Below, piece after piece: positions 15,795 through 54,049 of a stretch of DNA of 64,000 nt. The notes below the pieces were generated by a model that had not been told where the DNA came from, ran no database searches, and worked only from the letters and a program-made list of their open reading frames with translations. Position 1 is the stretch's first letter. Every line of letters starts with the position of its first letter. The stretch lies in contig NZ_SPNJ01000001.1 of assembly GCF_004563925.1 (NCBI RefSeq), forward strand, positions 434,001 to 498,000. The letters are read 5' to 3'. Made by a program: the position numbers and the translations under genes. Origin of the DNA: Herbaspirillum sp. 3R11. Lineage in GTDB: Bacteria; Pseudomonadota; Gammaproteobacteria; Burkholderiales; Burkholderiaceae_D.

Positions 15795-15871
15795 AGGCGC
15801 GTAGCTCAGCTGGTTAGAGCACTACCTTGACATGGTAGGGGTCGTTGGTTCGAGTCCAATCGTGCCTACCA
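15795..15871 (+). tRNA. tRNA-Val, anticodon GAC; prophage integration target
   Basis: AGGCGCG pairs with CGTGCCT ahead of A and an encoded CCA (end 15871). The anticodon stem CTACC/GGTAG encloses TTGACAT with anticodon GAC. A TATAAT box lies at 15775-15780. The last 27 bp form the attachment core repeated at the right end of the prophage, so integration leaves an intact tRNA. Confidence 0.95.
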
Positions 15872-17040
15872 GTATTCTCGATATTTGCGGGGGTGCTGGG
15901 ATTATTTTGGGATAGTGACCCATTCAGTATCGCTTCCATCTTGGCCTTTTCCCGGCCTCGATCGGCAGCATCAATCCATTTTGCGTACGTCGTGAAAACC
16001 ATCTTGGGATTAGCATGGCCAAGCTGGCGAGCGATGTATGCAGGGTTGACTCCTGACATCAGCGCAATCGTTGCGTAGGTGTGCCTGGTCTGATAGGCGC
16101 GCCGGTGTCGAATTCCTTTTCTCTTCAAAGTCGGTGCCCAATAGTGGTCTCTTTGCGACCGCTCGTCATGCCATGACTTCCCCGTTACCGGGTTCTCAAA
16201 AACTTCCTCTGTCTTCAAGTACGTGTATTGCTTCATCGTGCGCAGCGCATTCATGGCGCGCTCGACCAGGTCGACGTCGCGGGTCTCGCTCGTCTTGAGT
16301 GCTTTGACCGTTCCCTTGAAAGTCTTGGCGACCTGGATGCGGATTGTTCCATGGTTCCAATCGATGTCCTGCCAGCGCACGGCAATGGCTTCTTCCGGCC
16401 GCACTCCCGTCGTAAACATGAACTCGAAATAGGCGACGACTCTCGGATCGTATTGCTTTGCCATGTGCGCCAGCACGGACTCCATCTCTTCGGCGCTCAA
16501 CGGATCTGGGGGCGACTTCTGGTGCTTGGTGTTGTTGACGCCGCGCATGGGGTTGTCCAGCTCCGGCCGGTCGCGGCCGAGCAATTCAAATAGGCCGCGC
16601 AGCGGTATGAGGTAGTTGTTGCACAGCTTGGCCGTTGGCCAGGGGTGCGATCCGACGACGCCAGCGATTTCACTGTGGGGGATGGCGGTTAGCGGCCGGT
16701 CAGCGCCGAATTTCTTTTGCCAAAAGACCAGCGCATTCTTGTATTGCGACAGCGTCGCAGCGGAGAGGCGCCCCTTGGTGGCCAGCCATCGATCCGACAT
16801 ATCTTTCAGGGTAACGTCTGCTGCCGGGTCGCTCTTCGCGATGGCCGAGTTCGGGAAATACACTGCATACTCAAAGATGCCGGCGGCGATCTTCTTCTTG
16901 ATCTCGTCCGCCAGCCTGGTCGCGTATTTGATATTGGCCGGCGTCGGCTCCATGTTCTCCAGCGTCTCCTTACGCTGCTTTCCCTGCCAGCTAAATACGA
17001 TCCGGATGCTGCGCTCACGGACTTCTATCCCTCTACCCAT
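15814..17040 (-). CDS. Phage integrase (tyrosine recombinase) whose C-terminus runs into attL
   Basis: The 408-residue protein has an N-terminal arm-binding (DUF3596-type) domain (1-70), a SAM-like core-binding domain (about 75-165) and a catalytic domain with Arg214 (TGVRPEEA), Arg319/His320 (YQTRHTYA), His342 (LGHANP) and nucleophile Tyr352 (TTYAKW). The reading frame crosses the attachment core and stops at 15814 inside the host tRNA. In the excised circle the frame would continue into right-end sequence and stop after TNFKKP, giving about 403 residues. It should catalyse integration at tRNA-Val and, with the adjacent excisionase, excision. Confidence 0.95.
   Translation of the reverse strand: MGRGIEVRERSIRIVFSWQGKQRKETLENMEPTPANIKYATRLADEIKKKIAAGIFEYAVYFPNSAIAKSDPAADVTLKDMSDRWLATKGRLSAATLSQYKNALVFWQKKFGADRPLTAIPHSEIAGVVGSHPWPTAKLCNNYLIPLRGLFELLGRDRPELDNPMRGVNNTKHQKSPPDPLSAEEMESVLAHMAKQYDPRVVAYFEFMFTTGVRPEEAIAVRWQDIDWNHGTIRIQVAKTFKGTVKALKTSETRDVDLVERAMNALRTMKQYTYLKTEEVFENPVTGKSWHDERSQRDHYWAPTLKRKGIRHRRAYQTRHTYATIALMSGVNPAYIARQLGHANPKMVFTTYAKWIDAADRGREKAKMEAILNGSLSQNNPSTPANIENTGRHDWTRTNDPYHVKVVL
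15845..15871 (+). repeat. attL core (27 bp) within tRNA-Val
   Basis: The sequence from TTGGTTCGAG to GTGCCTACCA is identical to 54023-54049. It forms the T-arm and acceptor end of the tRNA. Confidence 0.95.
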
Positions 17041-36497: not shown

Positions 36498-36691
36498 ACC
36501 AAGTGCGCACCATTTTTGTCGTCCCCGTTGCAGGCCGGATCGTACCGGACCCGGAGCGTGGCGGCGACCTCGCGGCCGAGGGCCGTAACGTTCCACGCAC
36601 GCCGTACTGGCTGCGTGCTGTCACTGCTGGCGATGTGAAAGAAACTAAGCCAGCGGCCGATAAATCCACTGCCAAAGGTAAAGCAGAATGA
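36494..36691 (+). CDS. Mu gp38-like protein (DUF2635)
   Basis: The 65-residue protein has the DUF2635 signature: VPVAGRIVPDPERGGDLAAEGRNVPRTPYWLRA, quoted in part as RIVPDPERGGDLAAEG and PRTPYWLRA. It overlaps the sheath start by 4 bp. Function in the family is unknown but it is a constant neighbour of Mu-type sheaths. Confidence 0.87.
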   Translation: MNQVRTIFVVPVAGRIVPDPERGGDLAAEGRNVPRTPYWLRAVTAGDVKETKPAADKSTAKGKAE

Positions 36692-38181
36692 CCGTTCCAT
36701 ACAACACCACGCCGGCTGATGCGCTGGTTCCTCTGTTCTACGGTGAAGTCGACAACAGTATGGCGAACAGCGGCTCGACTGCGCTGCGCAGCCTGATCGT
36801 TGCTCAGGTGAACGATGATGTTGACCTGGTGGCGAGCGCGCTCCAGATCGTGGCGCGCACCAGCGATGCCATCGCCCTCGGTGGCGACGGCTCGATGCTG
36901 GCGTCGATGCATGCGCGTTGGCGCAAGATTGACCTCGGCGGTGAGATCTGGGTCTTGCCGGTGAAGGTCGACACTGGATCAGTTGCCACCGGTAAGGTGA
37001 CGCTGACCGGTACGGCGACTGAAGCTGGCCTGATCAACCTGTATATCGGTGCAACGCGCATTCGTGCATCGGTAGTCGTGGGTCAGACCGCTGCGGAAAC
37101 GGCTACAACGCTCGCTGCTGCGATCAACGTGGCGACAAGTTTGCCGGTGACTGCTGCGGCGGCAAATGCCGTGGTAACGTTGTCCTGCCGCTGGAAGGGC
37201 GACACCGGCAACGATATCAAGCTGGCGGTCAACATGAAGGGTGCTGCGGCAAACGAGAAGACGCCGGCAGGCCTGACGGTCGCCATGGTCAATCCGGCCG
37301 GCGGCACTGGCTCTCCAGACCTCGCGCAGTTGTTGGCGCTGGTCGGGGACGAGCCGTTTGAGTTCATCTGCCATCCTTACTCGGATGTGAATACGCTGGA
37401 TGACTTCCGCGACTGGATGAATGACAGTTCCGGTCGCTGGTCATATGCCCAGCAGTTGTGGGGGCATGTGTACACAGCGCAACGCGGCTCGCTGGGGCAA
37501 CTTGTGGCGGCTGGCCGTGTGCGCAACGATGCGCACATGACCATCGCTGGATTCGAGGCGACTGCGCCCGATCCTATCTGGGAAGAGTCAGCGGCGTATT
37601 GCGCACGGCAGGCAGTGTTCCTTTCGATTGACCCTGCGCGCCCAACCCAGACCGGCGAGCTGGTCGGGTTGACGCCCGCCCCAGCCGGCCAGCGCTTCAT
37701 CTGGTCTGAGTTCCAATCGCTGCTAAAAAATGGCATCGCCACTCAGAACTATGACGGCGGTTCTGTGCGCATTCAACGAGCGATCACCACCTACCAGCGC
37801 AACGCCTATGGCCAGCCGGACGATTCGTATCTGGACAGCGAAACGATGCACACCACCGGCTACGTGATGCGCTACTTGCGCTCGATCATTACCAGCAAGT
37901 ACGGCCGCCATAAGTTGGCCGATGACGGCACGCGCTTCGGTGCCGGCGACGCGCTGGTGACTCCAAGCACAATCCGCGGCGAGTTGATTGCGGCGTATCA
38001 GGAGCTGGAGCGTCGCGGCATCGTGGAGAACTCTGCGCTGTTCGAGAAGTATCTGATTGTTGAGCGCGCTGCCGGCAGTCCGAATCGTCTCAACGTACTG
38101 TTCCCGCCGGACTACGTGAATCAGTTGCGCATCTTTGCGCTGCTCAATCAGTTCCGCCTGCAGTACGCCGAAGCGGCTTAA
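36688..38181 (+). CDS. Contractile tail sheath protein (Mu gpL-like)
   Basis: The 497-residue protein begins MTVPYNTTPADALVPLFYGE, has an internal TGTATEAGLINLYIGATRIR module typical of Mu-like sheaths, and a C-terminal part with MRYLRSIITSKYGRHKLADDG and NRLNVLFPPDYVNQLRIFAL. Its presence makes the phage a myovirus. A strong hairpin follows before the tube gene. Confidence 0.94.
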   Translation: MTVPYNTTPADALVPLFYGEVDNSMANSGSTALRSLIVAQVNDDVDLVASALQIVARTSDAIALGGDGSMLASMHARWRKIDLGGEIWVLPVKVDTGSVATGKVTLTGTATEAGLINLYIGATRIRASVVVGQTAAETATTLAAAINVATSLPVTAAAANAVVTLSCRWKGDTGNDIKLAVNMKGAAANEKTPAGLTVAMVNPAGGTGSPDLAQLLALVGDEPFEFICHPYSDVNTLDDFRDWMNDSSGRWSYAQQLWGHVYTAQRGSLGQLVAAGRVRNDAHMTIAGFEATAPDPIWEESAAYCARQAVFLSIDPARPTQTGELVGLTPAPAGQRFIWSEFQSLLKNGIATQNYDGGSVRIQRAITTYQRNAYGQPDDSYLDSETMHTTGYVMRYLRSIITSKYGRHKLADDGTRFGAGDALVTPSTIRGELIAAYQELERRGIVENSALFEKYLIVERAAGSPNRLNVLFPPDYVNQLRIFALLNQFRLQYAEAA

Positions 38182-38202
38182 CGCCAACGTCAACGCAGTA
38201 TC

Positions 38203-38230
38203 ACGGCCCGGTAAATCCGGGCCGTTTCTT
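38203..38230 (+). terminator. Terminator between sheath and tube genes
   Basis: ACGGCCCGG (38203-38211) and CCGGGCCGT (38217-38225) form a perfect 9-bp stem with a TAAAT loop and a T-rich tail. Readthrough would set the sheath/tube ratio. Confidence 0.8.
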
Positions 38231-38245
38231 TTTAGGGAGTCTCAC

Positions 38246-38593
38246 ATGGGACAAAAAACAGCGGGTACTTGCTACGTCAAAGTAGACGGTTCCCAACTGA
38301 CGATTACCGGTGGCTGCGAAGCCCCGTTGATGCCCGTCAAGCGCGAAACGGTCGTTCCTGGCTTCTACAAGGAAGAAGACATGACGCCATATCTCAAGGT
38401 CGACGCCGTGCATACGCCGGACTTCCCACTGGAGAAGCTCATCAACGGCGACAACATGACCGTCACGACTGAGTTCAAGAATGGCAAGGTCTATGTCCTC
38501 GCTGGCGCGTATCTCGTCGGTGAGCCAGCGAGCGCGGGCGACGACGGCAAGATCGCTCTGGAATTTAACGGCATTAAAGGAACATGGCAATGA
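38246..38593 (+). CDS. Tail tube protein (Mu gpM-like)
   Basis: The ATG at 38246 follows TAGGGAG and gives 115 residues. The pattern GTCYVKVDGSQLTITGGCEA, KRETVVPGFYKEEDMTPYL and VTTEFKNGKVYVLAGAYLVG matches Mu-type tube proteins, which polymerise inside the sheath. It overlaps the chaperone gene by 10 bp. Confidence 0.92.
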   Translation: MGQKTAGTCYVKVDGSQLTITGGCEAPLMPVKRETVVPGFYKEEDMTPYLKVDAVHTPDFPLEKLINGDNMTVTTEFKNGKVYVLAGAYLVGEPASAGDDGKIALEFNGIKGTWQ

Positions 38594-38865
38594 AGCTGAA
38601 AAAACCAATCACGGCGCATGGCGACCAGATCACCGAAATCGTGTTGAAGGAACCGACTGGCGAAGACTGCCGCGCTGTCGGCGGCCTGCCGTACTCGATT
38701 GCTAGCGACGAATCGGTGTCCATCAATACCGCCACGGCGATGAAATACATCGGACGTTGCGCCGGCATTCCGCCGTCGTCTGTCGACCAGATTTGCCCTT
38801 CCGACCTCAATACGCTGTGCTGGGAGGTTGCGGGTTTTTTCTTGAGCGAGACGTCCAAAACATAG
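38584..38865 (+). CDS. Tail assembly chaperone, unshifted form (Mu gp41-like)
   Basis: The 93-residue protein (KPITAHGDQITEIVLKEPTG, SIASDESVSINTATAMKYIG) matches the Mu gp41 pattern. Near its end the zero-frame reads GCG-GGT-TTT-TTC, containing the canonical slippery heptamers G-GGT-TTT and T-TTT-TTC. Ribosomes slipping -1 here continue to 39008 (see the extended product). Such chaperones coat the tape measure during tail assembly. Confidence 0.9.
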   Translation: MAMKLKKPITAHGDQITEIVLKEPTGEDCRAVGGLPYSIASDESVSINTATAMKYIGRCAGIPPSSVDQICPSDLNTLCWEVAGFFLSETSKT

Positions 38866-39008
38866 AAGAAGTGATCGACCTGGCGTTTAACTGTGCGGAG
38901 TTCTGGCGGGTCGATCCTGAAGTGGAGCTGACCCGCTCGATCTCCACCATCATGCAGCACAACGCCCAGGCATGGCGTATCGCTCAATCAAGGAAAAACG
39001 ATGGCTGA
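38584..39008 (+). CDS. Tail assembly chaperone, -1 frameshift product
   Basis: A -1 shift at about 38830-38839 joins gp41 to a second open frame that reads LERDVQNIEEVIDLAFNCAE, then FWRVDPEVELTRSIS and ends at 39008, giving about 141 residues. The extension matches the conserved downstream half found in Mu-type tails, and it overlaps the tape measure start by 8 bp. The frame has no start of its own in a good context, supporting expression by frameshift. Confidence 0.8.
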
Positions 39009-40788
39009 TAAATTTCAATTGAAGGCGCTGATCACCGGCGTCGACAAGCTGTCGCCAACGCTTGCCGGCATCAGGAAGAACGTCGCCACGTTTCGGAAGC
39101 AATTGAAGACCAGCAGCCTGGGAGAGAAGATCTCCTTCGGCGAGCTGGTGCAAGGTGGCGCACTGGCGCTGCCGTTCATCGCAGGCGCCAAAGCTGCTAT
39201 CGACTTTGAGTCAGCGATGGCTGATGTGCGCAAGGTCGTCAACTTTGATTCACCGCAGCAGTTCAAAGACATGAGCAAGGACGTATTGGATCTCTCCAAG
39301 CGCCTGCCGATGGCGGCAAAGGATATCGCCGCCATCGTCGCTGCAGGCGGACAGGCTGGCTTCGACAAGGGCGAGCTGGGACGCTTCGCGGAGGATGCCG
39401 TCAAGATGGGCGTGGCATTCGACCAGGGCGCGGGCGAAGCGGGCGAGATGATGGCGAAATGGCGCACAGCGTTTCGCATGACTCAGGACGAGGTCGTGTC
39501 GCTGGCGGACAAGATCAACTATCTCGGCAACAACGGGCCGGCGAAGGCAAAGCAGATTTCGGCCATTGTCACCCGCATCGGTCCGCTGGCAGAGGTGGCT
39601 GGCCTCGCATCTGGTCAGATCGCCGCTATGGGCGCGACACTCGCCGGCGTCGGTATTCAGGAGGATGTCGCCGCCACCGGCATGAAGAACTTCTTCCTGA
39701 CTCTTACTGCAGGTGCCTCGGCCACCAAGCAGCAAAAGGAGACGTTCAAGGCGTTGCGGATGGAGCCAAAGAAGTTGGCGAAGGACATGCAGAAAGATGC
39801 GCAGGGAACGATGCTGCGCGTCCTGACTGCTATCAGCAAAGTCGATAAGTCGAAGCAGGCATCAGTGCTGCAGCAGCTTTTCGGTCGCGAATCAATCGAA
39901 GCTATCGCACCGTTGCTGACCAATCTTTCTCTGCTTACTGGCAACCTGCAGAAAGTAGGTGACGTGACGCAGTACGCCGGCTCGATGAACCAGGAGTATG
40001 CGTCGCGAGCAGCGACGACAGCAAATAACATCCAGCTGTTCACCAACCGCGTCGTCGCGTTGGGTATCAACGTAGGCAACATTCTGTTGCCGCCGTTGAA
40101 TTCGTTCATGGCTGTAGCGGGTCCAATGATTGAAATGGTGGCTGGTTTGGCCTCGGCATGCCCATGGCTTACCAAGGGCATCCTCGGTGCGGCAGTCGGG
40201 TTCGGCATCCTGCGCTTGGCCGTCATTGGCGCGACGCTGGCATCGAAGCTCTTCCTGGCTGTGACGAGCCTGACTCCAATCGGTCTCGCGGTGCGCGTAT
40301 TGGCGCTAGCCGCTGGCTTCCTGATCGCGAACTGGCGGTACATAGGGCCGTTCTTTGCCGCGTTGTGGGAGGGAATCAAGTCCGTATTCAGTGCGGGCTG
40401 GGAGCTGGTGAAAACCATCTTTGGCTTCTCTCCATTGGGCATGATCATCGCCAATTGGGAACCGATTGTTGCGTGGTTCAAAGGCATGTGGGAACGCATC
40501 CGACCATACGTGCAGCCGCTCATTGATGGCTTTAAATGGGTAACGGGCAACAGCGACAAGCTGAAGCCGGCGGGCGGCGTAGCGGGCCAAGGTGCGGACC
40601 CCGGCGCATGGCGGCAGCAAGTGATAGCTGGCCAGTCGGGACAGCCGCAATTGAAGGGCGACATGGTCGTGCGATTTGAGAACGCGCCGGCGGGCATGCG
40701 TGTCGACCAGGCGCAAACCAACCAGCCGGGATTATCGGTAACGCCACGTGTGGGATATCGCACGCTCGGAATGGGAACAGGAAAATGA
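39001..40788 (+). CDS. Tail tape measure protein
   Basis: The 595-residue protein follows the chaperone frames. It has the tape-measure family core: MADVRKVVNFDSPQQFKDMS, KRLPMAAKDIAAIVAAGGQA and GQIAAMGATLAGVGIQEDVA. Hydrophobic segments lie near 355-385 and 395-445. Length sets tail length; at about 1.5 angstrom per residue the tail would be roughly 90 nm, a rule-of-thumb estimate. It overlaps the next gene by 4 bp. Confidence 0.93.
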   Translation: MADKFQLKALITGVDKLSPTLAGIRKNVATFRKQLKTSSLGEKISFGELVQGGALALPFIAGAKAAIDFESAMADVRKVVNFDSPQQFKDMSKDVLDLSKRLPMAAKDIAAIVAAGGQAGFDKGELGRFAEDAVKMGVAFDQGAGEAGEMMAKWRTAFRMTQDEVVSLADKINYLGNNGPAKAKQISAIVTRIGPLAEVAGLASGQIAAMGATLAGVGIQEDVAATGMKNFFLTLTAGASATKQQKETFKALRMEPKKLAKDMQKDAQGTMLRVLTAISKVDKSKQASVLQQLFGRESIEAIAPLLTNLSLLTGNLQKVGDVTQYAGSMNQEYASRAATTANNIQLFTNRVVALGINVGNILLPPLNSFMAVAGPMIEMVAGLASACPWLTKGILGAAVGFGILRLAVIGATLASKLFLAVTSLTPIGLAVRVLALAAGFLIANWRYIGPFFAALWEGIKSVFSAGWELVKTIFGFSPLGMIIANWEPIVAWFKGMWERIRPYVQPLIDGFKWVTGNSDKLKPAGGVAGQGADPGAWRQQVIAGQSGQPQLKGDMVVRFENAPAGMRVDQAQTNQPGLSVTPRVGYRTLGMGTGK

Positions 40789-42020
40789 GTGATTGGAGAA
40801 AGCGACTGCAGCCGGCGTCGTTTCGCGGTGTGCCGTTCAAGGTGGACAGCGATTCTTCGCCGGTTGGGCGCGACGTGGTGGTCCATGAGTATCCCAAGAA
40901 GGACAAGCCCTACGTTGAAGACTCCGGGCGAAAAACGAGGGTCTTTCGTTTTCCGGCTTTTGTCATCGGCCCGGATTGTTTTGATCAACGGGACAAGTTG
41001 CTGTTAGCGCTCGATACTGCAGGCTCCGGCGAGCTGGTGCATCCGTGGTACGGGCGCATGAAGGTGACTGCGAACGGCGATTGCACGGTGTCCCATGACC
41101 GTCGCGAGGGCGGTATGGTGCGCTTTGACTTGGCGTTCGTTGAGGCGGGCGAACTGGGGTTCCCCACTGTCAAGCCGAACAATGCCAAACAAGTGCAGAC
41201 GTCTGCACAGGCGGTGCGTGACTCAGCATCCACCCGATTTGCTGCTGCATTGGAGCAGGTCAATATGGCCAAGGTGAAGGTCAACAACATCACCAGCAGC
41301 ATTTCGTCAATGTACGCGACGATCAACAACAATCTGCGGCCGCTGACGTCGCTGTTCTCGTCGGCCAGCGGCATGATCAACAGCATCATGAACGCGCCGC
41401 AGAACATGGCGGCCATGGTGTTCGGGACATTGAGCGATCTGGAGCGAGCATTCTCCAGCTTCGGGGGTTCTGGCAGTTCCATCGGCGGCAGTTCGTCGGC
41501 GGTGCAATCCTTTGCTGCTGCGCCAGTGCCACCGGGAGCTGATGCCGGCAAGTTGCATAGCGCACTGGTTGGACTGCTGCAAGACGCATCTATCTACAAC
41601 GGTCTGCTTGATACCGCGCAAGTCCCGGTAATCGCCGCGCCCGATGCGCCGGTCGGCATTCCAGATCTGGATACGCAGTTGTCGCAAGAGCCGGACGGTG
41701 CTACTGCGCCGATCACGTCCGACGTCATTGATATTCGCGACGGGCTGAACGAGGCAATCCACGTCGTGGCTATGTCGGCCTCTGGAGATCACTACCTGGT
41801 GCTGACCGACGCTCGGCAGGCTGCGAACTTGCACTTGTCGAACGTGGCGCGGGCAGGCATACGGCTGATCTCCTATTCGCCGCGTGCGACGACACCGGCT
41901 CTCGTGCTGGCCTACCGTTTGTATGCAGATGCATCGCGTGCCGGAGAAATCGTCAGTCGAAACAAATTGCGGCATCCCGGCTTCGTACCGGCGGTGCCGC
42001 TGGAAGTGGCGAGTAAATGA
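40785..42020 (+). CDS. DNA circularisation N-terminal/baseplate hub protein (Mu gp43/N-like)
   Basis: The 411-residue protein opens with WRKRLQPASFRGVPFKVDSD and VVVHEYPKKDKPYVEDSGRK, the DNA_circ_N signature, continuing FVIGPDCFDQRDKLLLALD. The middle is a long helical and low-complexity region; the C-terminal part resembles Mu N. It belongs to the tail tip. It contains copy 5 of the 14-bp palindrome, read as VQTSA. Confidence 0.9.
   Translation: MSDWRKRLQPASFRGVPFKVDSDSSPVGRDVVVHEYPKKDKPYVEDSGRKTRVFRFPAFVIGPDCFDQRDKLLLALDTAGSGELVHPWYGRMKVTANGDCTVSHDRREGGMVRFDLAFVEAGELGFPTVKPNNAKQVQTSAQAVRDSASTRFAAALEQVNMAKVKVNNITSSISSMYATINNNLRPLTSLFSSASGMINSIMNAPQNMAAMVFGTLSDLERAFSSFGGSGSSIGGSSSAVQSFAAAPVPPGADAGKLHSALVGLLQDASIYNGLLDTAQVPVIAAPDAPVGIPDLDTQLSQEPDGATAPITSDVIDIRDGLNEAIHVVAMSASGDHYLVLTDARQAANLHLSNVARAGIRLISYSPRATTPALVLAYRLYADASRAGEIVSRNKLRHPGFVPAVPLEVASK
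41194..41207. repeat. Palindrome TGCAGACGTCTGCA, copy 5
   Basis: Perfect 14-bp palindrome (G before, C after) within the circularisation-protein gene. Confidence 0.85.
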
Positions 42021-43132
42021 TGAGCAATGACGACGATGTGACCCTGACCGTGAACGGATACGACTACGGCGGGTGGACGGAGGTTGACATCAATGCTGGC
42101 GTCGAACGCCAGGCACGTGACTTTTCTCTCGGCATTACATGGGAATGGCCGGGCAGCGGTGCAACGGCTGTTCGCATCAGGAAGAACGACCGCTGTGAAG
42201 TACGCATCGGGAATGACCTGGTGCTGACTGGCTACGTATTCGCTACTCCAATCGAATGGGACAAGAAGCAGATCCAGCTGACAGTCAAAGGGCGGTCGTT
42301 GACGGCCGATCTGGTGGATGCATGCCCGGACGATAAGCCTGGTCAATGGCGCAACCAGAGCATTGAAAAGATTGTCCGCGCCCTGGTAGCGCCGTATGGC
42401 ATTCAGGTGGTGAATGAAGGGCGAGACGCCACGGTGGTAAAGGATCATACGGTCAAGCCAGGGGAAACGGTGTTTGAGTCAATTGACCGACTGCTGACGG
42501 TGTCTCGCCTGTTCTCCACCGATGACGGGCGGGGCCGGTTGGTGATGGCGCGGCCGGGTAGTAAGGGCTGGGCGGCCAATGCGTTGGAGCTGGGCGTCAA
42601 CCTGTTGACGGGTAATGCCCCCCTCGATTTTTCGTCGGTGTTTTCTGAGTACGTTTGCAAGGGGCAGAAAAGCTCTTCCGATGACGATGAAGACAACGAG
42701 GCGAGCGCGGAGGTATCTGCAAGCGCCAAGGATGAGCGCATGGATCGCCATCGACGGCTTGTGATTCATGAGTCGGGACAGGTCAGCAAAGAACTGGCTC
42801 AGTGGCGAGCCGATTGGGAGCGTGAACATCGCATCAGTAAAGCACTGGAGGCAACGTACAGCGTCCAAGGCTGGCGGCAGTCCAATGGCCAGCTATGGCT
42901 GCCGAACCTGATGGCGCGCCTGATAGATCCCATAGCCGGTTTCGACCGCGACATGCTGATTGCGGAGGCTGGATATCACCGAAGCCGGCAGCGTGGGACG
43001 TTGACAACAATGAAGGTAGCGCCTCCAGACGGATTCGAGCCCGAGCCGAATGACAAGCGTAAGCGGCAAAAACTCAAGAAGTCGAAGGACGGCTTTGAAT
43101 ATTTGCTGCCTGCAGATTGGGAGAAAAATTAA
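42017..43132 (+). CDS. Baseplate hub protein (Mu gp44/P, gpD-like)
   Basis: The 371-residue protein has VNGYDYGGWTEVDINAGVER and FSLGITWEW, then RCEVRIGNDLVLTGYV, matching the Mu P family, which is structurally like phage T4 gp27/P2 gpD. The C-terminal third contains a charged linker (SSDDDEDNEASAE). Start and stop overlap neighbours. Confidence 0.92.
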   Translation: MMSNDDDVTLTVNGYDYGGWTEVDINAGVERQARDFSLGITWEWPGSGATAVRIRKNDRCEVRIGNDLVLTGYVFATPIEWDKKQIQLTVKGRSLTADLVDACPDDKPGQWRNQSIEKIVRALVAPYGIQVVNEGRDATVVKDHTVKPGETVFESIDRLLTVSRLFSTDDGRGRLVMARPGSKGWAANALELGVNLLTGNAPLDFSSVFSEYVCKGQKSSSDDDEDNEASAEVSASAKDERMDRHRRLVIHESGQVSKELAQWRADWEREHRISKALEATYSVQGWRQSNGQLWLPNLMARLIDPIAGFDRDMLIAEAGYHRSRQRGTLTTMKVAPPDGFEPEPNDKRKRQKLKKSKDGFEYLLPADWEKN

Positions 43133-43668
43133 TGAGCGCGGATACCCTTTTGGCGCGTTGTACTGTGGTGCTGTCGAACCCGAAGTCGAAGACGCAGCGT
43201 CTGCAGGTGCGAGTCCTGGCTGGCGAGACCAAGGATGACATGGAGCTGTTTGAGCAGTATGGCATCACATCGGTGCCGCTCAACGGTGCCGGTGGCCTCG
43301 CGTTGTTCTTCGGCGGGGATCGCTCCCATGGCGTTGTGATCATGCCGGGCGATAAACGCTATCGGCCTACCGATCTGGAGCCGGGTGAGCTGGCGATCTA
43401 TACGCACGAAGGCGCGAAGATCGTCATGCGCAAGGGGAAGATCATCGAGGTGGAATGCGACGAATACCGCGTAAAGACGAAAGTCTATTCCGTGGAAGCC
43501 GAGCAGACGATCTCGCTGAAGTCGTCAGCTTTTGACCTGGCCGCAGACACTGCCAAGTCGTCAGCGGCGCTGCAGGCTCCGGATGTCGTGTTGGGTGGCA
43601 AGAGCATGGTCAGCCACCGACACAACGAACACGACGGACCACAGACAGGAGGTCCGATCAATGGCTGA
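43132..43668 (+). CDS. Baseplate spike protein (Mu gp45-like)
   Basis: From the ATG at 43132, overlapping the upstream stop, the protein has 178 residues. FEQYGITSVPLNGAGGLALF and GDRSHGVVIMPGDKRYRP are typical of Mu gp45, with a C-terminal beta-helical repeat region and a final histidine-rich VSHRHNEHDGPQTGGPI that could bind metal at the spike tip. Confidence 0.92.
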   Translation: MSADTLLARCTVVLSNPKSKTQRLQVRVLAGETKDDMELFEQYGITSVPLNGAGGLALFFGGDRSHGVVIMPGDKRYRPTDLEPGELAIYTHEGAKIVMRKGKIIEVECDEYRVKTKVYSVEAEQTISLKSSAFDLAADTAKSSAALQAPDVVLGGKSMVSHRHNEHDGPQTGGPING

Positions 43669-44065
43669 CGCATCGGAAGACGAACGCCGAGCATTGCTGC
43701 GGCGTGCCGCGATTATCAGCTTGTTCTCGTGGCGTCGAGCGGATCCAAGCGACCAGCCCGACGACAGTGACCAGCTGGGATGGTGGGGCGATAGCTTCCC
43801 CAGCGTTGCGAACGACCAGACCGGATCCCGGCTTTACCTACTGCGGCGGCGGACGCTGGTGGAACAGACTCTGCGCGACGCCGTTGAGTACGCGCAGGAG
43901 GCACTGGCTTGGTTTGTCGAGGACGGACATGCCAGCGCCGTGACCGTGACGACAGAGCGACGCGGCACCAGTACGTTGGCGATGCGAGCGGTCATTGACC
44001 TACTCAATGACGATCCCCTGGTGCTGGAACTTGACGATATTTGGAGTGTGATACATGCCGTTTAA
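43661..44065 (+). CDS. Baseplate wedge protein (Mu gp46, gp25-like)
   Basis: The ATG at 43661 overlaps the upstream stop by 8 bp and gives 134 residues. FSWRRADPSDQPDDSDQLGW and GWWGDSFPSVANDQTGSRLY match the gp46 family, and TLRDAVEYAQEALAW follows. It links spike and baseplate J. Confidence 0.9.
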   Translation: MADASEDERRALLRRAAIISLFSWRRADPSDQPDDSDQLGWWGDSFPSVANDQTGSRLYLLRRRTLVEQTLRDAVEYAQEALAWFVEDGHASAVTVTTERRGTSTLAMRAVIDLLNDDPLVLELDDIWSVIHAV

Positions 44066-45101
44066 CTCGGATTCTTTACCCGTCATCATCAAACGGTCGA
44101 GAGCGGATCTTGCTCCGGCCAGCAGCAGCGGTGCGCTGCGTCGCTCAGACGCGGAAGTACTGGCTCGGGTCCATGGCGGCACCAGCTTCGCGCTGCGCGA
44201 ACATCAAAAGACAATCGCCGACGAGATGCTGCCTGACACGTGCAGCGACGAGATGATATTGCGGCAGGCGAACCTCCGGCTGCAGCGGGGTCTGCTGCCC
44301 GCGACGACGGCCGCTGGCAGCATCATATGCACCGGTCAGGCCGGCGGGGTTGTAACAGCGGGTGCGATCTATCAGACCGAGGACGGGCGGCGTGTCGTCG
44401 TGAGTGTGGACACGCCGCTGGCTGGTAACACGGTGGTTCCAGCAGTCTCCCTGGTCGCCGGTGCGGCCGGAAACATTGAGGCCGGCACCGCGCTCACTGC
44501 AGTCTCGCCGGTTGACCAGGTCAACGACGCTGCCGTGGTTGGGGGGGCGGGCATTGCCGGCGGGACCGAGCAGGAGACGACTGCGCAACTGCGGGCGAAG
44601 GTCATCCGCTCATACCGGATCGTCGCGCACGGCGGATCGGCTGACGATTACGAGACATGGGGGCTGGAAGTTCCTGGTGTTACTCGCGCCTGGTGCCGCC
44701 GCAACTGGTTCGGTCCGGGTACGGTCGGCCTGTTCATCATGTGCGACGGCAATCCGAATCCATTTCCTGATGCGGCCAAGCTCGCGGAGGCGCAGACGTA
44801 CATCGAGACGGTGTATCCGGTCGGCGCGGATCTGGCGGTCTTGGCTCCCACGCCGAAGCCGGTGCATTTTGTGATTCACCCGGTTCCGGACACGGTCGCG
44901 GTGCGAGCATCTATCGATGCTGCTCTGCGAGACTTGATCTTTTCCGAAGCGGCCCTCGGTACAACGCTACTGCACACACACCAAACGCAGGCTATCAGCA
45001 ACGCTACTGGCGAGGAGGATCACGGCTTGATCGCGCCGGCGGGGAATGTGGTTGCGGCACCAGGCGAGTTGATTACGTTCGGAGATATCGCATGGGCATA
45101 G
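44055..45101 (+). CDS. Baseplate J-like protein (Mu gp47)
   Basis: The 348-residue protein matches baseplate J: GTALTAVSPVDQVNDAAVVG, GGTEQETTAQLRAKVIRSY and APTPKPVHFVIHPVPDTVA are characteristic. It forms the wedge that triggers sheath contraction. It overlaps both neighbours. Confidence 0.93.
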   Translation: MPFNSDSLPVIIKRSRADLAPASSSGALRRSDAEVLARVHGGTSFALREHQKTIADEMLPDTCSDEMILRQANLRLQRGLLPATTAAGSIICTGQAGGVVTAGAIYQTEDGRRVVVSVDTPLAGNTVVPAVSLVAGAAGNIEAGTALTAVSPVDQVNDAAVVGGAGIAGGTEQETTAQLRAKVIRSYRIVAHGGSADDYETWGLEVPGVTRAWCRRNWFGPGTVGLFIMCDGNPNPFPDAAKLAEAQTYIETVYPVGADLAVLAPTPKPVHFVIHPVPDTVAVRASIDAALRDLIFSEAALGTTLLHTHQTQAISNATGEEDHGLIAPAGNVVAAPGELITFGDIAWA

Positions 45102-45682
45102 CCGAAGACTATCTCGACCAGATGCGTCAGCTGCTGCCGCCTGGTCCTGCGTGGGACGTGGCGTTCGGCGACGAGGTCGACCAGGTACTGCAGGGCTTGG
45201 CTGCAGAGTTTGCCCGCGTCGACGCACGCGGCGACGATCTGCTGGCCGAGATGTATCCGGCAACTCTGCGCGAGCTGCTGACGGATTGGGAGCGCGTCAT
45301 GCAGTTGCCAGATCCCTGCTTGGGTGACAGCCAAGGATTTGAAGAGCGCCGCACGGCGGTGATCCGCAGGATGATCGTCGGCGGCGGGCAAAGCGCTGTG
45401 TACTTTGAGGGGATCGCAGTGAGCATGGGGTATCCCGACGCCGAGGTGGTTCGACATCGAGCGCCGCGCTTCGGCAGTTCACGTTTCGGTCGCGACCGAT
45501 TCGGTAGCTGGGCGCAGCAGTTTTTTTGGACGCTGCAGTTAGGTACGCCGCGACCAGGAGGCCGGCGCTTTGGCGTCTCCGTGTGGGGTGAGCGCTTCGG
45601 GTCTAACCCGAACGAAGGTATCGAATGTGTGGTGCGGCGATGGGCGCCTGCACACACCATCGTCAATTTTGAATACGACTGA
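45092..45682 (+). CDS. Tail protein (Mu gp48, DUF2313)
   Basis: The 196-residue protein has the DUF2313 pattern LDQMRQLLPPGPAWD and DDLLAEMYPATLRELLTDWE, with LPDPCLGDSQGFEERRTAV. It attaches fibres to the baseplate. The tail-fibre gene starts 11 bp later. Confidence 0.92.
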   Translation: MGIAEDYLDQMRQLLPPGPAWDVAFGDEVDQVLQGLAAEFARVDARGDDLLAEMYPATLRELLTDWERVMQLPDPCLGDSQGFEERRTAVIRRMIVGGGQSAVYFEGIAVSMGYPDAEVVRHRAPRFGSSRFGRDRFGSWAQQFFWTLQLGTPRPGGRRFGVSVWGERFGSNPNEGIECVVRRWAPAHTIVNFEYD

Positions 45683-45693
45683 CAAGGATAAAT

Positions 45694-46491
45694 ATGGATT
45701 TTCCAAAGAGCGTAGCCGGCGTTGGTCTGGTGGATGGTAAGTTCGTCGACGAGAACAAGGCGACTGGCCAGGCGGGGTCGTTGATCCCTAGCGCGTGGGG
45801 TAATGCGGTTACCGACGAGCTTTTGAACGTGGTCCGTGCTGCCGGTCTGAATCCGGCCGAGGGCAACAATACGCAGCTCCTGCAGGCCATCGGCATTATG
45901 CTGGCCAATCAAGGATCTGCACTGAACCGCTATCCAACAGTGCCGGCGGTGAAGGGTGACGACGAAATCTACGTCCGGGGGCGTGGTGAGATGATTTGGA
46001 CGGAGACCGCCTACTTTGTCGGGTATCGGTCGCCGCATTGCGGCCGCCCTGTCGACGGTCACACGAACGTCCCGTTGACCCGCGAAGTCGACGCGGTCGG
46101 TGGACTTTTGTCGAAAACGGATTACGCCGGATTGTGGGCTTATGCTCAGGAGCAAGCGTTAGTCGTGACGCAGGCTGTATGGACCGCAAACGTAGGCGCA
46201 CACTACTTTGTAGACGTTTCAGGGACTCAGTTCCGTATCCCCGATCTGCGCAACATGTTCCGCCGATTTACCGGAACTGACGCTGACACTGCAAATGCAA
46301 GAACGCTGGCCACGAAACAGGCATTCACGGTCCAGACCCACTCGCACACCTTCATGGGATCTGTGCAGGCCGTCGGTGCCGGCGGCTACCCCGTACCGTA
46401 TGGCGGCGGTGCGTCGAATGTGACAAATGCTGCAGGAAGTGCTGAGACCCGTCCCGTCAACACTGGCTACGCCCCTCGGCTTTACGCGTAG
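45694..46491 (+). CDS. Tail fibre/collar protein with switchable C-terminus (expressed cassette A)
   Basis: The 265-residue protein has a constant N-terminal part (1 to about 197; FPKSVAGVGLVDGKFVDENK, then IPSAWGNAVTDELLNVVRAA) and a collar-like segment with FRIPDLRNMFRRFTGTDAD. At TANARTL the crossover motif CACTGCAAATGC (46287-46298) begins the variable C-terminus of about 67 residues, which includes THSHTF and ends AETRPVNTGYAPRLYA. Four alternative C-termini lie inverted downstream. The fibre tip should decide receptor binding, so cassette choice would change host range. Confidence 0.92.
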   Translation: MDFPKSVAGVGLVDGKFVDENKATGQAGSLIPSAWGNAVTDELLNVVRAAGLNPAEGNNTQLLQAIGIMLANQGSALNRYPTVPAVKGDDEIYVRGRGEMIWTETAYFVGYRSPHCGRPVDGHTNVPLTREVDAVGGLLSKTDYAGLWAYAQEQALVVTQAVWTANVGAHYFVDVSGTQFRIPDLRNMFRRFTGTDADTANARTLATKQAFTVQTHSHTFMGSVQAVGAGGYPVPYGGGASNVTNAAGSAETRPVNTGYAPRLYA

Positions 46492-46692
46492 AGGCGCGGG
46501 GCGTAGGCCGTGTGCTTCGGAGCCGTCTCAGCGGTCCCTGTTGGCTGGACTATGCCGCCGACGTTGGCCAGGTTCGCACTGGAGCCGGACGAATACCGAT
46601 TGACGCCGCCCGTATCGGATCCGCGTAGCGTGTGATCGTGGCTCTTCAACGTGTCGGCCTTGTACGAACCGAGCGTTCTTGCATTTGCAGTG
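46482..46692 (-). other. Silent fibre cassette B
   Basis: From the site at 46692 the frame reads ANARTLGSYKADTLKSHDHT and ends AYAPRLYA with TAA at 46482-46484. Its end overlaps the end of expressed cassette A by 10 bp, both strands coding YA-stop. Confidence 0.85.
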
Positions 46693-46703
46693 ACACAGTC
46701 GGC

Positions 46704-46917
46704 CTATGCGTGGATTCTCGGCGCATAGGCGGTGTGCCTTGGGGCCGTTTCAGCTGAGCCGGTGGTCAAGGTGTTGGCGAGCGATACATCGGACGAAAGG
46801 TCGGCAAGCGATTGAATGCCTGCGCCAATTGCATATACCGCACGTCCCCGCTGCACATGGGAGTGCGATTTAAACGTGTCGGCCTTGTAGGAACCCAAGC
46901 CCCTGGCATTTGCAGTG
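46704..46917 (-). other. Silent fibre cassette C
   Basis: The frame reads ANARGLGSYKADTFKSHSHV, continues IGAGIQSLADLSSDVSLANT and ends TAYAPRIHA with TAG. It shares KADT and SHxH with cassette B but diverges in the middle. Confidence 0.85.
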
Positions 46918-46928
46918 ACGCGGTCGCT

Positions 46929-47187
46929 TTACGCGTGCAGCCGTGGCGCATAGGCGGTACTCACTGGACGCGTCTCTGTCGAGACGCGAGGCAGGCCCCC
47001 TGAGCCGTCCTGGGTCGCCGGGCCAATAGCGGTGGCAGGGGTAGTTGCCACGGCTATCGCAGCGTTCACAAAATCGTTGACCGTACTACCGCCCTGGTAG
47101 CTCTTATTCGAGTTTGTGGTGCTTTGATGGAGGTGACGCTGGAAGGCATCAAGCCGCCAAGTTCCGAGCGCTCTCGCATTTGCAGTG
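46929..47187 (-). other. Silent fibre cassette D (longest)
   Basis: The frame reads ANARALGTWRLDAFQRHLHQ, has a middle rich in small residues (FVNAAIAVATTPATAIGPAT) and ends TETRPVSTAYAPRLHA. It is about 45 bp longer than the others. Confidence 0.85.
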
Positions 47188-47198
47188 ACATGGTCGGA

Positions 47199-47412
47199 TC
47201 AAACGTAGATACGCGGGCAATAGGCTGTGTGTTTCGGTGCAGTCTCGGCCGTTCCTGTGGACGTAGTAACGATATAACCCGACAGTTCGCGCGGCGTATT
47301 GTTGTTACCTTGCGCAAAGCCGATCCCCGCTTGATTACCAGTTTGCGCACTATGGGCGTGGCTTCGAATCGAATCTAGTTTGTACGAGCCTAGCACCCTC
47401 GCATTTGCAGTG
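47199..47412 (-). other. Silent fibre cassette E
   Basis: The frame reads ANARVLGSYKLDSIRSHAHS, continues GIGFAQGNNNTPRELSGYIV and ends AETAPKHTAYCPRIYV with TGA. It is the outermost cassette and its site (47401) differs just upstream of the core. Confidence 0.85.
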
Positions 47413-47487: not shown

Positions 47488-47841
47488 ATGAATCAGATCG
47501 ATGTTTATCAAACGGACGCCAACAGCATCTTTACCTTCGCAGCGAAAGCCAACGAGCTGGCGCAATCGCCTGGCACATTCAACATTCCCTACGGCGCAAA
47601 GCTGACTGCGCCGCCGGCACGTCCGGCTGGAAAAGCTGCCCTCGCTGTGGGGGAGTCATGGATTCTGGTAGACGACCATAGCGCAACGGCGTTCTATCGC
47701 ACGGATACGGGCGACAAGTACGAATTCAATACGGCGATCATCGTCGACGGCAGCGCCGTCATTTACAGCGGCTACGGAGAGGTGCCGGCATGGTTGACAG
47801 ATGTCGAGCCGGAACCGGCGGAAGTTCCTGCAGCGGAGTAA
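47488..47841 (+). CDS. Small tail-fibre assembly-like protein
   Basis: The 117-residue protein follows AAAAGGAG and reads MNQIDVYQTDANSIFTFAAK; ESWILVDDHSATAFYRTDTG resembles the recurring segment of tail-fibre assembly/chaperone proteins encoded after fibre genes. It lies outside the invertible region and would serve all cassettes. Its last 70 bp overlap the recombinase gene end on the other strand. Confidence 0.65.
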   Translation: MNQIDVYQTDANSIFTFAAKANELAQSPGTFNIPYGAKLTAPPARPAGKAALAVGESWILVDDHSATAFYRTDTGDKYEFNTAIIVDGSAVIYSGYGEVPAWLTDVEPEPAEVPAAE

Positions 47842-48824
47842 TGCTCTTGCCGAAGCTGCAGGAGCTGCTTGCGGCCGAGGGGACTGCGAGTCAGCTTTCT
47901 GGCCAGCTCCCTGCCGTCAGGATGGTAGTAGCGCAGCAGCATGCGCGTGTCGACGTTTCCGTTCACCTTAGCCAGCTCGTGGATTTGAAACACTGTCGCC
48001 ATCTGCGACGTACCTTCATGGCGAGTGTCATGGAATCTCAAGTCGCGGAAATAAGCGTTGTTTGGTTTGCGGCAGTGCTTCTTGCATAGCTCTTCGTATT
48101 TGGTCCTGGCGCGTTTGCGGGCGCGTATGAATGCCCGCGTCACCGAGCCAGGCTGAATTGTGAATATGCGACCGCGCATCGGCTTGCCGACCACCCAACA
48201 ACGCAGGGCTTCTTTGGCGATGGGGGTGAGTGGAACGACGCGGGAACGGCCGTTCTTGGTGTGTGGCAGTCGGACGGTGCCGTGCTGCAGGTCCAGATTC
48301 TCTCTGCAGATCCCGGTTACCTCAGACCGCCGCATGCCTGTTTCCCTTGCGACGACAAATATGGTCGGAAACTCCGGCGATCTTGTCGATCCGAGTATCC
48401 ATGCGCTCTCGTCCTTCGGGCATTCTGATTCCGGTATCCCGCGCAGTCGGATCTGATCAAAGAAGCGGCGGTCACGTGCGTCATTGACTGCAGGACGGCG
48501 GACGAGCTGCACCGGATTGGCGAGCCAGTCGTATCCCCAGTCTTTCCGGATGACGGTGTACACATGGGACAAAAATGCGAGGCGACGCGTGACGGTGGAT
48601 GCGGCTTTGGTGGTCAGCCAGGAGTCGCGAATCTCGATGATGTTCGTGTTCTTCACTCGCTCGACAGGACGACTGGCCAGCCGAGTAGAGAGCCATTGCT
48701 TTGCGATGGATGCTTCGGCCGCATGGCCCTTTTTTAATAACGAAATCTCCGAAAGATATCGCTTGATCGCTTGGGCGAGGGTGAGGGGGATTCGCGGGGC
48801 TTTCTGATGGAAGCTATTTTTCAT
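47772..48824 (-). CDS. Rci-like shufflon tyrosine recombinase
   Basis: The 350-residue protein is a second tyrosine recombinase, unlike the tRNA integrase. A SAM-like N-terminal domain (about 15-105) is followed by a catalytic domain with Arg165 (TGMRRSEVTG), Lys190 (HTKNGRSRVV), His265/Arg268 (FHDTRHEGTS) and nucleophile Tyr299 (LLRYYHPD). HDTRHE plus RYxHP is the Rci-type signature of plasmid shufflons. The usual GH motif before the Tyr reads GN (Asn290), an unusual change. The gene faces the cassette array and very likely inverts it. Confidence 0.85.
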   Translation of the reverse strand: MKNSFHQKAPRIPLTLAQAIKRYLSEISLLKKGHAAEASIAKQWLSTRLASRPVERVKNTNIIEIRDSWLTTKAASTVTRRLAFLSHVYTVIRKDWGYDWLANPVQLVRRPAVNDARDRRFFDQIRLRGIPESECPKDESAWILGSTRSPEFPTIFVVARETGMRRSEVTGICRENLDLQHGTVRLPHTKNGRSRVVPLTPIAKEALRCWVVGKPMRGRIFTIQPGSVTRAFIRARKRARTKYEELCKKHCRKPNNAYFRDLRFHDTRHEGTSQMATVFQIHELAKVNGNVDTRMLLRYYHPDGRELARKLTRSPLGRKQLLQLRQEHYSAAGTSAGSGSTSVNHAGTSP

Positions 48825-50717: not shown

Positions 50718-51506
50718 ATGGGAACACCAATTATTCCTTGGCTCGGCGGCAAGCGTCGTCTGGCCGATACTCTTATTCCACGCTTCCCGCAGCACAAATG
50801 CTACGTCGAGGTTTTTGCCGGCGGTGCTGCGCTGTATTTCTTGCGGCCGCCGGCAGAGGTGGAAGTGATTAACGACGTCAACGGCGAGCTGATCAATCTC
50901 TATCGGGTGGTCAAGAATCACCTTGAGGAATTTGTCCGGCAATTCAAGTATGCGCTGTCGAGTCGGCAGGTATTCAAGTGGCTGCAGGACACGCCGACCG
51001 AGACGCTGACGGATATTCAGCGTGCCGCTCGTTTCTTCTACCTGCAGCAGCACTGCTTCGGTGGCAAGGTCGATGGACAGACTTGGGGGACCGCAACAAC
51101 AGCGCCGCCGGTCAACCTGCTGCGCATCGAGGAGAATTTATCTGCAGCGCATTTGCGCCTGGCGTCGACGTACATCGAGAATCGCGATTGGGCAAAGTGC
51201 ATCGAGACCTATGATCGGCCGCACACTTTTTTCTACATGGATCCGCCGTATTGGGAGACGGCCGGCTATGGAGTGGAGTTCGGACTGGAGCAGTATGAGC
51301 GCATGGCCGGACTGATGCGGTCTATGAAGGGCAAGGCCATCCTGAGTATCAACGACCACCCTGAGATTCGGCGAGTCTTCGCTGGATTTCAGCTGGAAGA
51401 AGTCGGTATTGACTATCAGGTCGGCGGCGGTGGCAAGTCCGTGGCCAGGACGGAGCTGATCATTTATAGCTGGGACCGTGAAGCCGAACCTGCAGGACTG
51501 TTCTAA
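50718..51506 (+). CDS. DNA adenine N6-methyltransferase (D12 class)
   Basis: The 262-residue protein begins WLGGKRRL and has the SAM motif VEVFAGGAALYF (FAGG 33-36) and the catalytic DPPY (175-178). This is the Dam/D12 class that methylates adenine, often in GATC. No partner restriction enzyme is seen. An orphan methylase in a prophage usually protects phage DNA or alters expression. Confidence 0.93.
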   Translation: MGTPIIPWLGGKRRLADTLIPRFPQHKCYVEVFAGGAALYFLRPPAEVEVINDVNGELINLYRVVKNHLEEFVRQFKYALSSRQVFKWLQDTPTETLTDIQRAARFFYLQQHCFGGKVDGQTWGTATTAPPVNLLRIEENLSAAHLRLASTYIENRDWAKCIETYDRPHTFFYMDPPYWETAGYGVEFGLEQYERMAGLMRSMKGKAILSINDHPEIRRVFAGFQLEEVGIDYQVGGGGKSVARTELIIYSWDREAEPAGLF

Positions 51507-54022: not shown

Positions 54023-54049
54023 TTGGTTCGAGTCCAATCGTGCCTACCA
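54023..54049 (+). repeat. attR core (27 bp)
   Basis: Identical to the tRNA-Val 3' end at 15845-15871. Only the tRNA 3' part is present, so this copy is not a functional tRNA. Confidence 0.95.

Follow-up and report, generated by a model that had tools for sequence, protein, structure and literature searches.

A putative five-state tail-fibre shufflon beside a tyrosine recombinase in a Herbaspirillum prophage with a Mu-type tail

In phages of the Mu type, tail-fibre switching is the textbook example of inversion by a serine recombinase, the type to which the Tn3 resolvase TnpR also belongs, and the G segment of Mu has two states, against the five described here. In the R64 plasmid shufflon, a tyrosine recombinase is adjacent to the array. 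The available text of one report names the inversion systems Gin, Cin (P1) and Min (p15B), and describes the Rin shufflon of Bifidobacterium prophages, in which a phage tyrosine recombinase lacking an arm domain and separate from the integrase accompanies a constant receptor-binding gene with C-terminal cassettes and short asymmetric repeats (PMC6109161). According to the same text, one Bifidobacterium phage has five tips and inversions were seen in both prophage and virion sequence; the accessible part of a second report describes a Rin system in Eggerthella lenta as well (PMC8778435). Tail-fibre tips are also shuffled in the FRphi prophage of Enterobacter, for which the available excerpts report mixed states in chromosomal and virion DNA, with one of three tips competent to infect the tested strain (PMC13418256), and another report, as far as its excerpts go, detected inversions of tail fibres among the prophages of four species of Proteobacteria (PMC5903667). 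For a prophage of Pseudomonas fluorescens Pf-5 with a siphovirus head and a myovirus-like tail, an Rci-like integrase was noted, while no tail-fibre array is described in the available portion of that report (PMC2647930). Our literature search, for which subscription journals were mostly out of reach, returned no description that we recognised of the Burkholderiales family presented here, and the matches listed for its site string, or for a shorter form of it, were all unrelated.

Here we describe a locus in Herbaspirillum sp. 3R11 that, judged from its sequence and that of its relatives, is very probably a tail-fibre shufflon with five states, switched by the neighbouring tyrosine recombinase and carried by a prophage whose tail is Mu-type (Table 1). 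A scan of the window, by which we mean the whole 64-kb stretch of DNA that was analysed, confirmed the five exact copies of CACTGCAAATGC reported by the first-pass annotation, of which one reads forward within the fibre gene and the other four are inverted, all lying within 1.1 kb; the copies do share one codon phase, each opening a different C-terminus in the frame of the fibre. When at most one mismatch is allowed, the window holds six matches to CACTGCAAATGC, whereas shuffled sequences hold a mean of 0.64 and none of 100 reached six or more. The exact 12-mer occurs ten times in the 5.2-Mb genome, five times in the 1.1-kb array and as five lone copies elsewhere, while the pattern read backwards occurs nowhere in those 5.2 Mb. 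All five cassette frames are intact and follow the consensus TANARxL...HxH...ETxPxxTxYxPR; the end motif AETxPxxTAYxPR proposed earlier rightly recognised the ends as related but was drawn slightly too narrowly, with AETRPVNTGYAPR in the forward cassette and TETRPVSTAYAPR at site 4. The 3' ends of cassettes A and B overlap by 10 bp. In the proposed mechanism, the in-frame and the four silent 3' cassettes, all beginning at the same 12-bp sequence, would be exchanged by a recombinase inverting the DNA between the site of the fibre and any of the four opposed sites; each inversion would put a different tip on the fibre, and one virus line would yield particles with five different tips. Only one arrangement of the array is present in the host assembly, while 48 are computed to be reachable on paper by inversion alone, each placing one of A–E in frame.

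Table 1. Features of the prophage and its tail-fibre locus, in window coordinates.
Feature	Coordinates	Strand	Match or basis
Putative attL, 3' end of the tRNA-Val gene (15795-15871)	15845..15871	+	27-bp direct repeat
Prophage integrase with arm-binding domain	15814..17040	-	PF12167 E 4.2e-21, PF00589 E 6e-21
Contractile tail genes, largely Mu-type: sheath, tape measure, DNA circularisation protein, GpP, Gp45, Gp46, baseplate J, Gp48	36688..45682	+	Pfam
Tail fibre gene, present state: constant part (about 45694-46286) plus cassette A	45694..46491	+	265 aa
Candidate recombination site 1, CACTGCAAATGC, end of constant part	46287..46298	+	exact match
Cassette A, 67 aa, C-terminus now in frame	46287..46491	+	
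Silent cassette B, 69 aa, opens at site 2 (46681-46692)	46482..46692	-	
Silent cassette C, 70 aa, opens at site 3 (46906-46917)	46704..46917	-	
Silent cassette D, 85 aa, opens at site 4 (47176-47187)	46929..47187	-	
Silent cassette E, 70 aa, opens at site 5 (47401-47412)	47199..47412	-	
Putative tail fibre assembly protein, 117 aa	47488..47841	+	phrog_105 tail fiber assembly E 8.6e-07; phrog_1807 tail fiber protein E 1.2e-08
Tyrosine recombinase P0001, 350 aa, proposed invertase	47772..48824	-	PF00589 E 4.9e-15
Putative attR, 27-bp repeat of the tRNA-Val 3' end	54023..54049	+	direct repeat

The two 27-bp repeats would bound a prophage of about 38 kb, at one end of which the integrase gene overlaps the tRNA-Val gene. 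Terminase, portal and capsid genes lie upstream of the tail genes, and a Dam-type adenine methyltransferase is encoded downstream of the holin gene (50718-51506, + strand). The fibre gene product, for which no match was found in Pfam, matches the PHROG tail fibre family phrog_1858 (E 6.8e-32), and a profile built from 40 homologues of the fibre hits, over a short N-terminal stretch (profile positions 34–74, E 0.003), the solved 'Tail fiber protein S', presumably the S of phage Mu. The Mu-type tail genes and the match to protein S together suggest that the switch sits where Mu has its fibre, which in Mu is Gin-controlled. In P0162, a fibre homologue of 436 aa, a single frame holds three TANA motifs, which looks like read-through of cassettes in tandem.

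Overlooked in the first-pass annotation, the tyrosine recombinase P0001 adjoins the array 360 bp beyond the last site, behind the putative fibre assembly gene. PF00589 was found in all 21 recombinase sequences that we aligned, whereas no arm-binding domain was found in these 21, their N-terminal matches being weak (Int_N in 3/21, best E 0.057), and a profile search with the recombinase matched the catalytic region of an enzyme resembling XerC (E 2.7e-07). Residue 290 of P0001 is Asn where most tyrosine recombinases have His or Trp; the 21 aligned sequences have Asn in ten cases, His in eight, Trp in two and Gln in one, and Asn is also found in the recombinase of L144, which comes from a phage present in two states (see below). 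P0001 was considered as the only integrase of the prophage and rejected as such, given the second, arm-domain integrase at the tRNA-Val end. Since that integrase is separate, P0001 is likely dedicated to tip switching, and we infer that it acts on the CACTGCAAATGC sites and that this phage switches. A Gin-type switch and a diversity-generating retroelement were both rejected: the earlier statement that neither Gin nor a reverse transcriptase is present holds across the whole genome at the thresholds used, in which searches for serine recombinases (PF00239) and reverse transcriptases (PF00078) gave no match, the same searches being positive in 10 and 3 of 14 control genomes, respectively.

Among described systems, the phage Rin system (PMC6109161) comes closest in anatomy, and with it the locus shares an arm-less tyrosine recombinase distinct from the prophage integrase, a constant gene with C-terminal cassettes, short asymmetric repeats, and five tips, as far as the available description of Rin extends. 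It differs from Rin in its host and in its sites, rix being the 11-bp TTCCCTAACCC in the accessible text of PMC6109161 and the sites here CACTGCAAATGC, and also in that the tips are small (67–106 aa) and carried on a fibre resembling Mu S. As in the Mu G segment with Gin, inversion would swap tail-fibre C-termini, and here too the switch lies beside Mu-type baseplate genes; unlike here, however, Gin, Cin and Min are serine recombinases, of which the genome has no match, and the FRphi recombinase is likewise called Gin and related to TnpR in the excerpts available (PMC13418256). With plasmid shufflons of the R64 type the locus shares multiple inverted sites, an adjacent tyrosine recombinase and a constant N-terminus with several C-termini, but the target of the plasmid system is the pilus tip adhesin PilV, with repeats of 19 bp in a Pseudomonas plasmid according to the part of PMC6158609 available, rather than a tail fibre.

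The comparison with R64 and Rci made in the first-pass annotation stands for the way the system would work, but in our tree its enzyme is not placed beside the Rci-type recombinase. The PilV-linked recombinase of the IncI plasmid NZ_CP147055, which we take to be Rci, is 31.5% identical to P0001. A tree of 56 rows places the array recombinases together in a 40-row clade (99/89), which includes those of the array-less L015, L068 and L074; the PilV-linked enzyme lies outside it with two other viral integrases, so that membership of an Rci clade is not supported, within the limits that long branches set on this result. A scan of the PilV locus of the same plasmid found no repeated sites. Shufflon-like working, Rin-like anatomy and placement apart from Rci together point to a variant of the phage tyrosine-recombinase shufflons, and by anatomy, rather than by recombinase sequence, we set the locus beside Rin as one of that kind.

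Sequence records of relatives contain what appear to be alternative states of such a switch. In L143 and L144, contigs of two records, the 2,873 bp before the first site pair are 100% identical and the 533 bp after it 99.8% identical, while the intervening 474 bp, measured from site to site including the sites, are 100% identical but inverted, the fibre tip being 68 aa long in one and 87 aa in the other. This exact inversion places two switch states on record in a relative, whose recombinase (that of L144) is 71% identical to P0001. L037 and L038, from the same phage, present a third arrangement, being 99.98% identical over 4.3 kb and then continuing with different cassettes from the site onward, a difference that deletion could explain as well as inversions. 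In the less closely related pairs L042/L043 and L061/L062, single cassettes stand in opposite orientation with their ends at sites.

Some contigs also end at or close to a site. The viral contig L162 (25,578 bp) is 100% identical to and collinear with window positions 20728-46305, ending 7 bp after site 1 inside the fibre gene, although its origin may be a second assembly of the same strain; the contig of L163, at 84% identity to the prophage, stops 1 bp after site 1. Among the contigs of Pandoraea captiosa (G149), the site in the fibre frame forms the exact end of one and a site the exact start of another, and two more end 65 bp past a site; this genome has two such systems with different recombinases (L121 and L120), both at contig ends. 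A contig end falls within 10 bp of a site in 6 of 50 site-bearing contigs, against about 0.23 expected for random ends, and within 100 bp in 13 of 50, against 2.14 expected, a rough expectation given that several contigs are near-identical and four come from one genome, two of these through the site search. Sites 1 and 2 share a 21-bp repeat that a small-k assembly would not cross, and the contig ends could partly reflect this repeat or the trimming of prophage records. A published plasmid shufflon fragmented a short-read assembly, according to the excerpted report (PMC6158609).

Cassettes were also compared between phages, using 145 complete ones from 36 contigs (L037, L038, L080 and L143 were omitted as near-identical to contigs that were kept). 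Nineteen pairs of cassettes taken from different contigs reach 85% identity or more across at least 85% of their length. In 11 of these, cassettes 88–99% identical accompany recombinase genes that are only 64–75% identical (ten pairs) or have no 300-bp match (one pair), and in six of the 19 one phage has the cassette in frame while its counterpart carries it as a silent one. Of four contig pairs followed in detail, L042/L061 and L039/L061 share a block running exactly from site to site, while in L041/L061 and L043/L062 the block ends fit less exactly; the parts neighbouring the shared blocks are 64–80% identical. Near-identical cassettes in phages with diverged recombinases suggest that tips travel between related phages as units. 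A wider reading, which we offer tentatively and would not yet favour, is that Burkholderiales phages share a pool of tips in an integron-like market, with a tyrosine recombinase, in place of Gin at a Mu-type locus, both switching tips and passing site-bounded cassettes between divergent phages.

These shared cassettes bear on the alternative that survives best, though we consider it improbable, namely that the main reaction is the gain and loss of cassettes, as in integrons, with inversion a by-product. The 11 close pairs linking phages with diverged recombinase genes fit this alternative, as does L037, in which the cassette beside the recombinase differs from those of L038 and L144 in a way that deletion could explain equally well. 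The opposed orientation of the sites in the Herbaspirillum array and the exact inversion between L143 and L144, however, point to inversion as the regular reaction, and frequent deletion between direct repeats would be expected to empty arrays of up to nine sites. Inversion as the principal outcome is the reading we retain.

The sites themselves are conserved beyond what the protein would seem to need. A search by protein pattern first returned 114 cassette matches, two of which begin too early; the third codon is AAT in 111 of the 114 and the first two are mostly ACT (94) and GCA (104), in contrast to the conserved PR and ETR near the cassette ends, where synonymous codons vary. Among 143 silent sites, defined as those with no long upstream frame, the base at -5 is C or T in all 143, that at -10 is G in 133 and that at -2 is C in 130, and from these conserved flanks the recombination site seems to extend about 10 bp upstream. 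Conservation of the 12 bp through the protein alone is thus disfavoured, both by the near-fixed synonymous codons and by the upstream flanks of the silent sites. Some phages have a changed core common to all the sites found in them, CTGCGAATGC at 6/6 sites in L117, ATGCAAATGC at 4/4 in L064, CTGCTAATGC at 2/2 in L052 and GTGCAAATGA at 2/2 in L066, with L050 and L065 as exceptions in which the two sites of each differ by one base within the core. A core that is the same within a phage and changed between phages is as expected from strand exchange inside it. The 10-bp core CTGCAAATGC is the most likely place for the crossover, since this core is common to silent and in-frame sites, varies between some phages while usually being uniform within one, and is preceded by a flank that stays with the constant part.

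This conservation weighs against a static array, in which the cassettes would be old tail-fibre duplicates, the 12 bp kept only because the protein needs TANAR, and no switching would occur now. Such stasis would account for the single arrangement in the host assembly and for those relatives that have decayed or unequal sites, or a recombinase without a fibre. We nevertheless regard it as very unlikely, given that all five frames are intact, that codons are near-fixed at synonymous positions with silent sites conserved in their upstream flanks, that the near-identical L143 and L144 have opposite orientations, and that the contig of the identical prophage, L162, ends at a site. An array still in use remains the better account, and its association with P0001-like enzymes can be followed across relatives.

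The loci of relatives were gathered by recombinase homology, blind to the site, with one list comprising the best 80 of 283. Two or more sites were found in 31 of 38 contigs whose recombinase is at least 55% identical to P0001, 28 of these with the exact 10-bp core and three with one changed core at every site found, whereas none of 57 loci with distant recombinases (about 29–40% identity) has two or more and four have one, again with one list being the best 80 of 283. A single site was found in four of the 38, of which L017 and L037 stop next to that site, L018 has masked sequence next to it and L050 has a second, decayed one; no site was found in L015, nor in L044 and L073, both of which end beside the recombinase gene. 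The 38 contigs are not all independent, the near-identical L042/L080 and L037/L038 having been kept while duplicate records of one contig were dropped, and they leave aside the intermediate recombinases (41–47%) of L064 (four changed-core sites), L065 (two differing sites), L067 (two sites), and L068 and L074 (none). The recombinase of L015/L010, from Pandoraea nosoerga, is closely placed within the clade but is an orphan, neither a site nor a fibre match being found in 17 kb. Among integrases of the PAJU2, Mannheimia and Paraburkholderia plasmid types (about 29–39% identical), no comparable array was found.

The reverse search, which used a direct site pair alone as its pattern in viral contigs and so finds only direct pairs at 206–236 bp spacing, returned 37 stretches, judged by their reading frames to be 23 cassette arrays and 14 non-arrays, the latter mostly TANA repeats within long uninterrupted frames. 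A recombinase homologue lies inside the stretch in 16 of the 23 arrays and in none of the 14 non-arrays. Of the seven arrays without one, L126 shares a contig with L043 and L143 is near-identical to L144, both of which have the recombinase, while for L125/L160 (one record), L142, L146 and L156 no close homologue was found in their records. No tyrosine recombinase was matched at all in the records of L156, L160 and L146, which may be fragments. Arrays of nine sites (L156/L219, record G154) and of seven (L125+L160/L220, record G155) thus stand without a tyrosine recombinase match, either as fragments or with the enzyme elsewhere. Across 36 loci, 118 of 128 sites open a complete frame of 67–106 codons, and the remaining ten comprise eight truncated by the sequence end, a masked one and a chance match. 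In 36 of 42 loci a single site, and no other, continues an upstream frame of 180 codons or more, the fibre; the other six loci have no such site, and their sequence ends nearby. The largest array in relatives has nine sites (L156), and L054, L056 and L060 have inverted sites back to back, 26 bp apart.

That another enzyme, the prophage integrase or a host Xer, performs the inversion while the neighbouring recombinase has a different task is the least credible alternative, for although the genome has eight PF00589 matches and the record of the nine-site L156 lacks a tyrosine recombinase, arrays follow the P0001 clade (31/38 against 0/57, one list being the best 80 of 283) and the changed-core phages L117, L052 and L064 carry recombinases of that same clade. 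P0001 itself is the enzyme we favour. The locus has five site sequences, one opposed to the other four, a constant N-terminus with alternative C-termini in the same frame, and a site-specific recombinase that both adjoins the array and is linked to it, by gene and by linkage. The proposal of a phage-encoded shufflon, with which the first-pass annotation began, is supported by the adjacent and separate tyrosine recombinase, the linkage of sites to it, the one fibre-joined site with the rest silent, and the exact inversion in relatives.

Here a fibre locus of the Mu type carries a tyrosine recombinase, with five tips in this prophage and arrays of as many as nine sites among its relatives. A change of tip would probably alter the choice of receptor, and with it the hosts to which the particles attach, and a clonal lysogen could then release phages with different host ranges. 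If this is true, mixed populations would arise from single lysogens, and only one of several tips would appear in a reference genome, a point of consequence for the prediction of phage-host pairs. The common site and the near-identical cassettes in divergent phages would, in addition, offer a concrete test of how phages acquire their receptor-binding tips.
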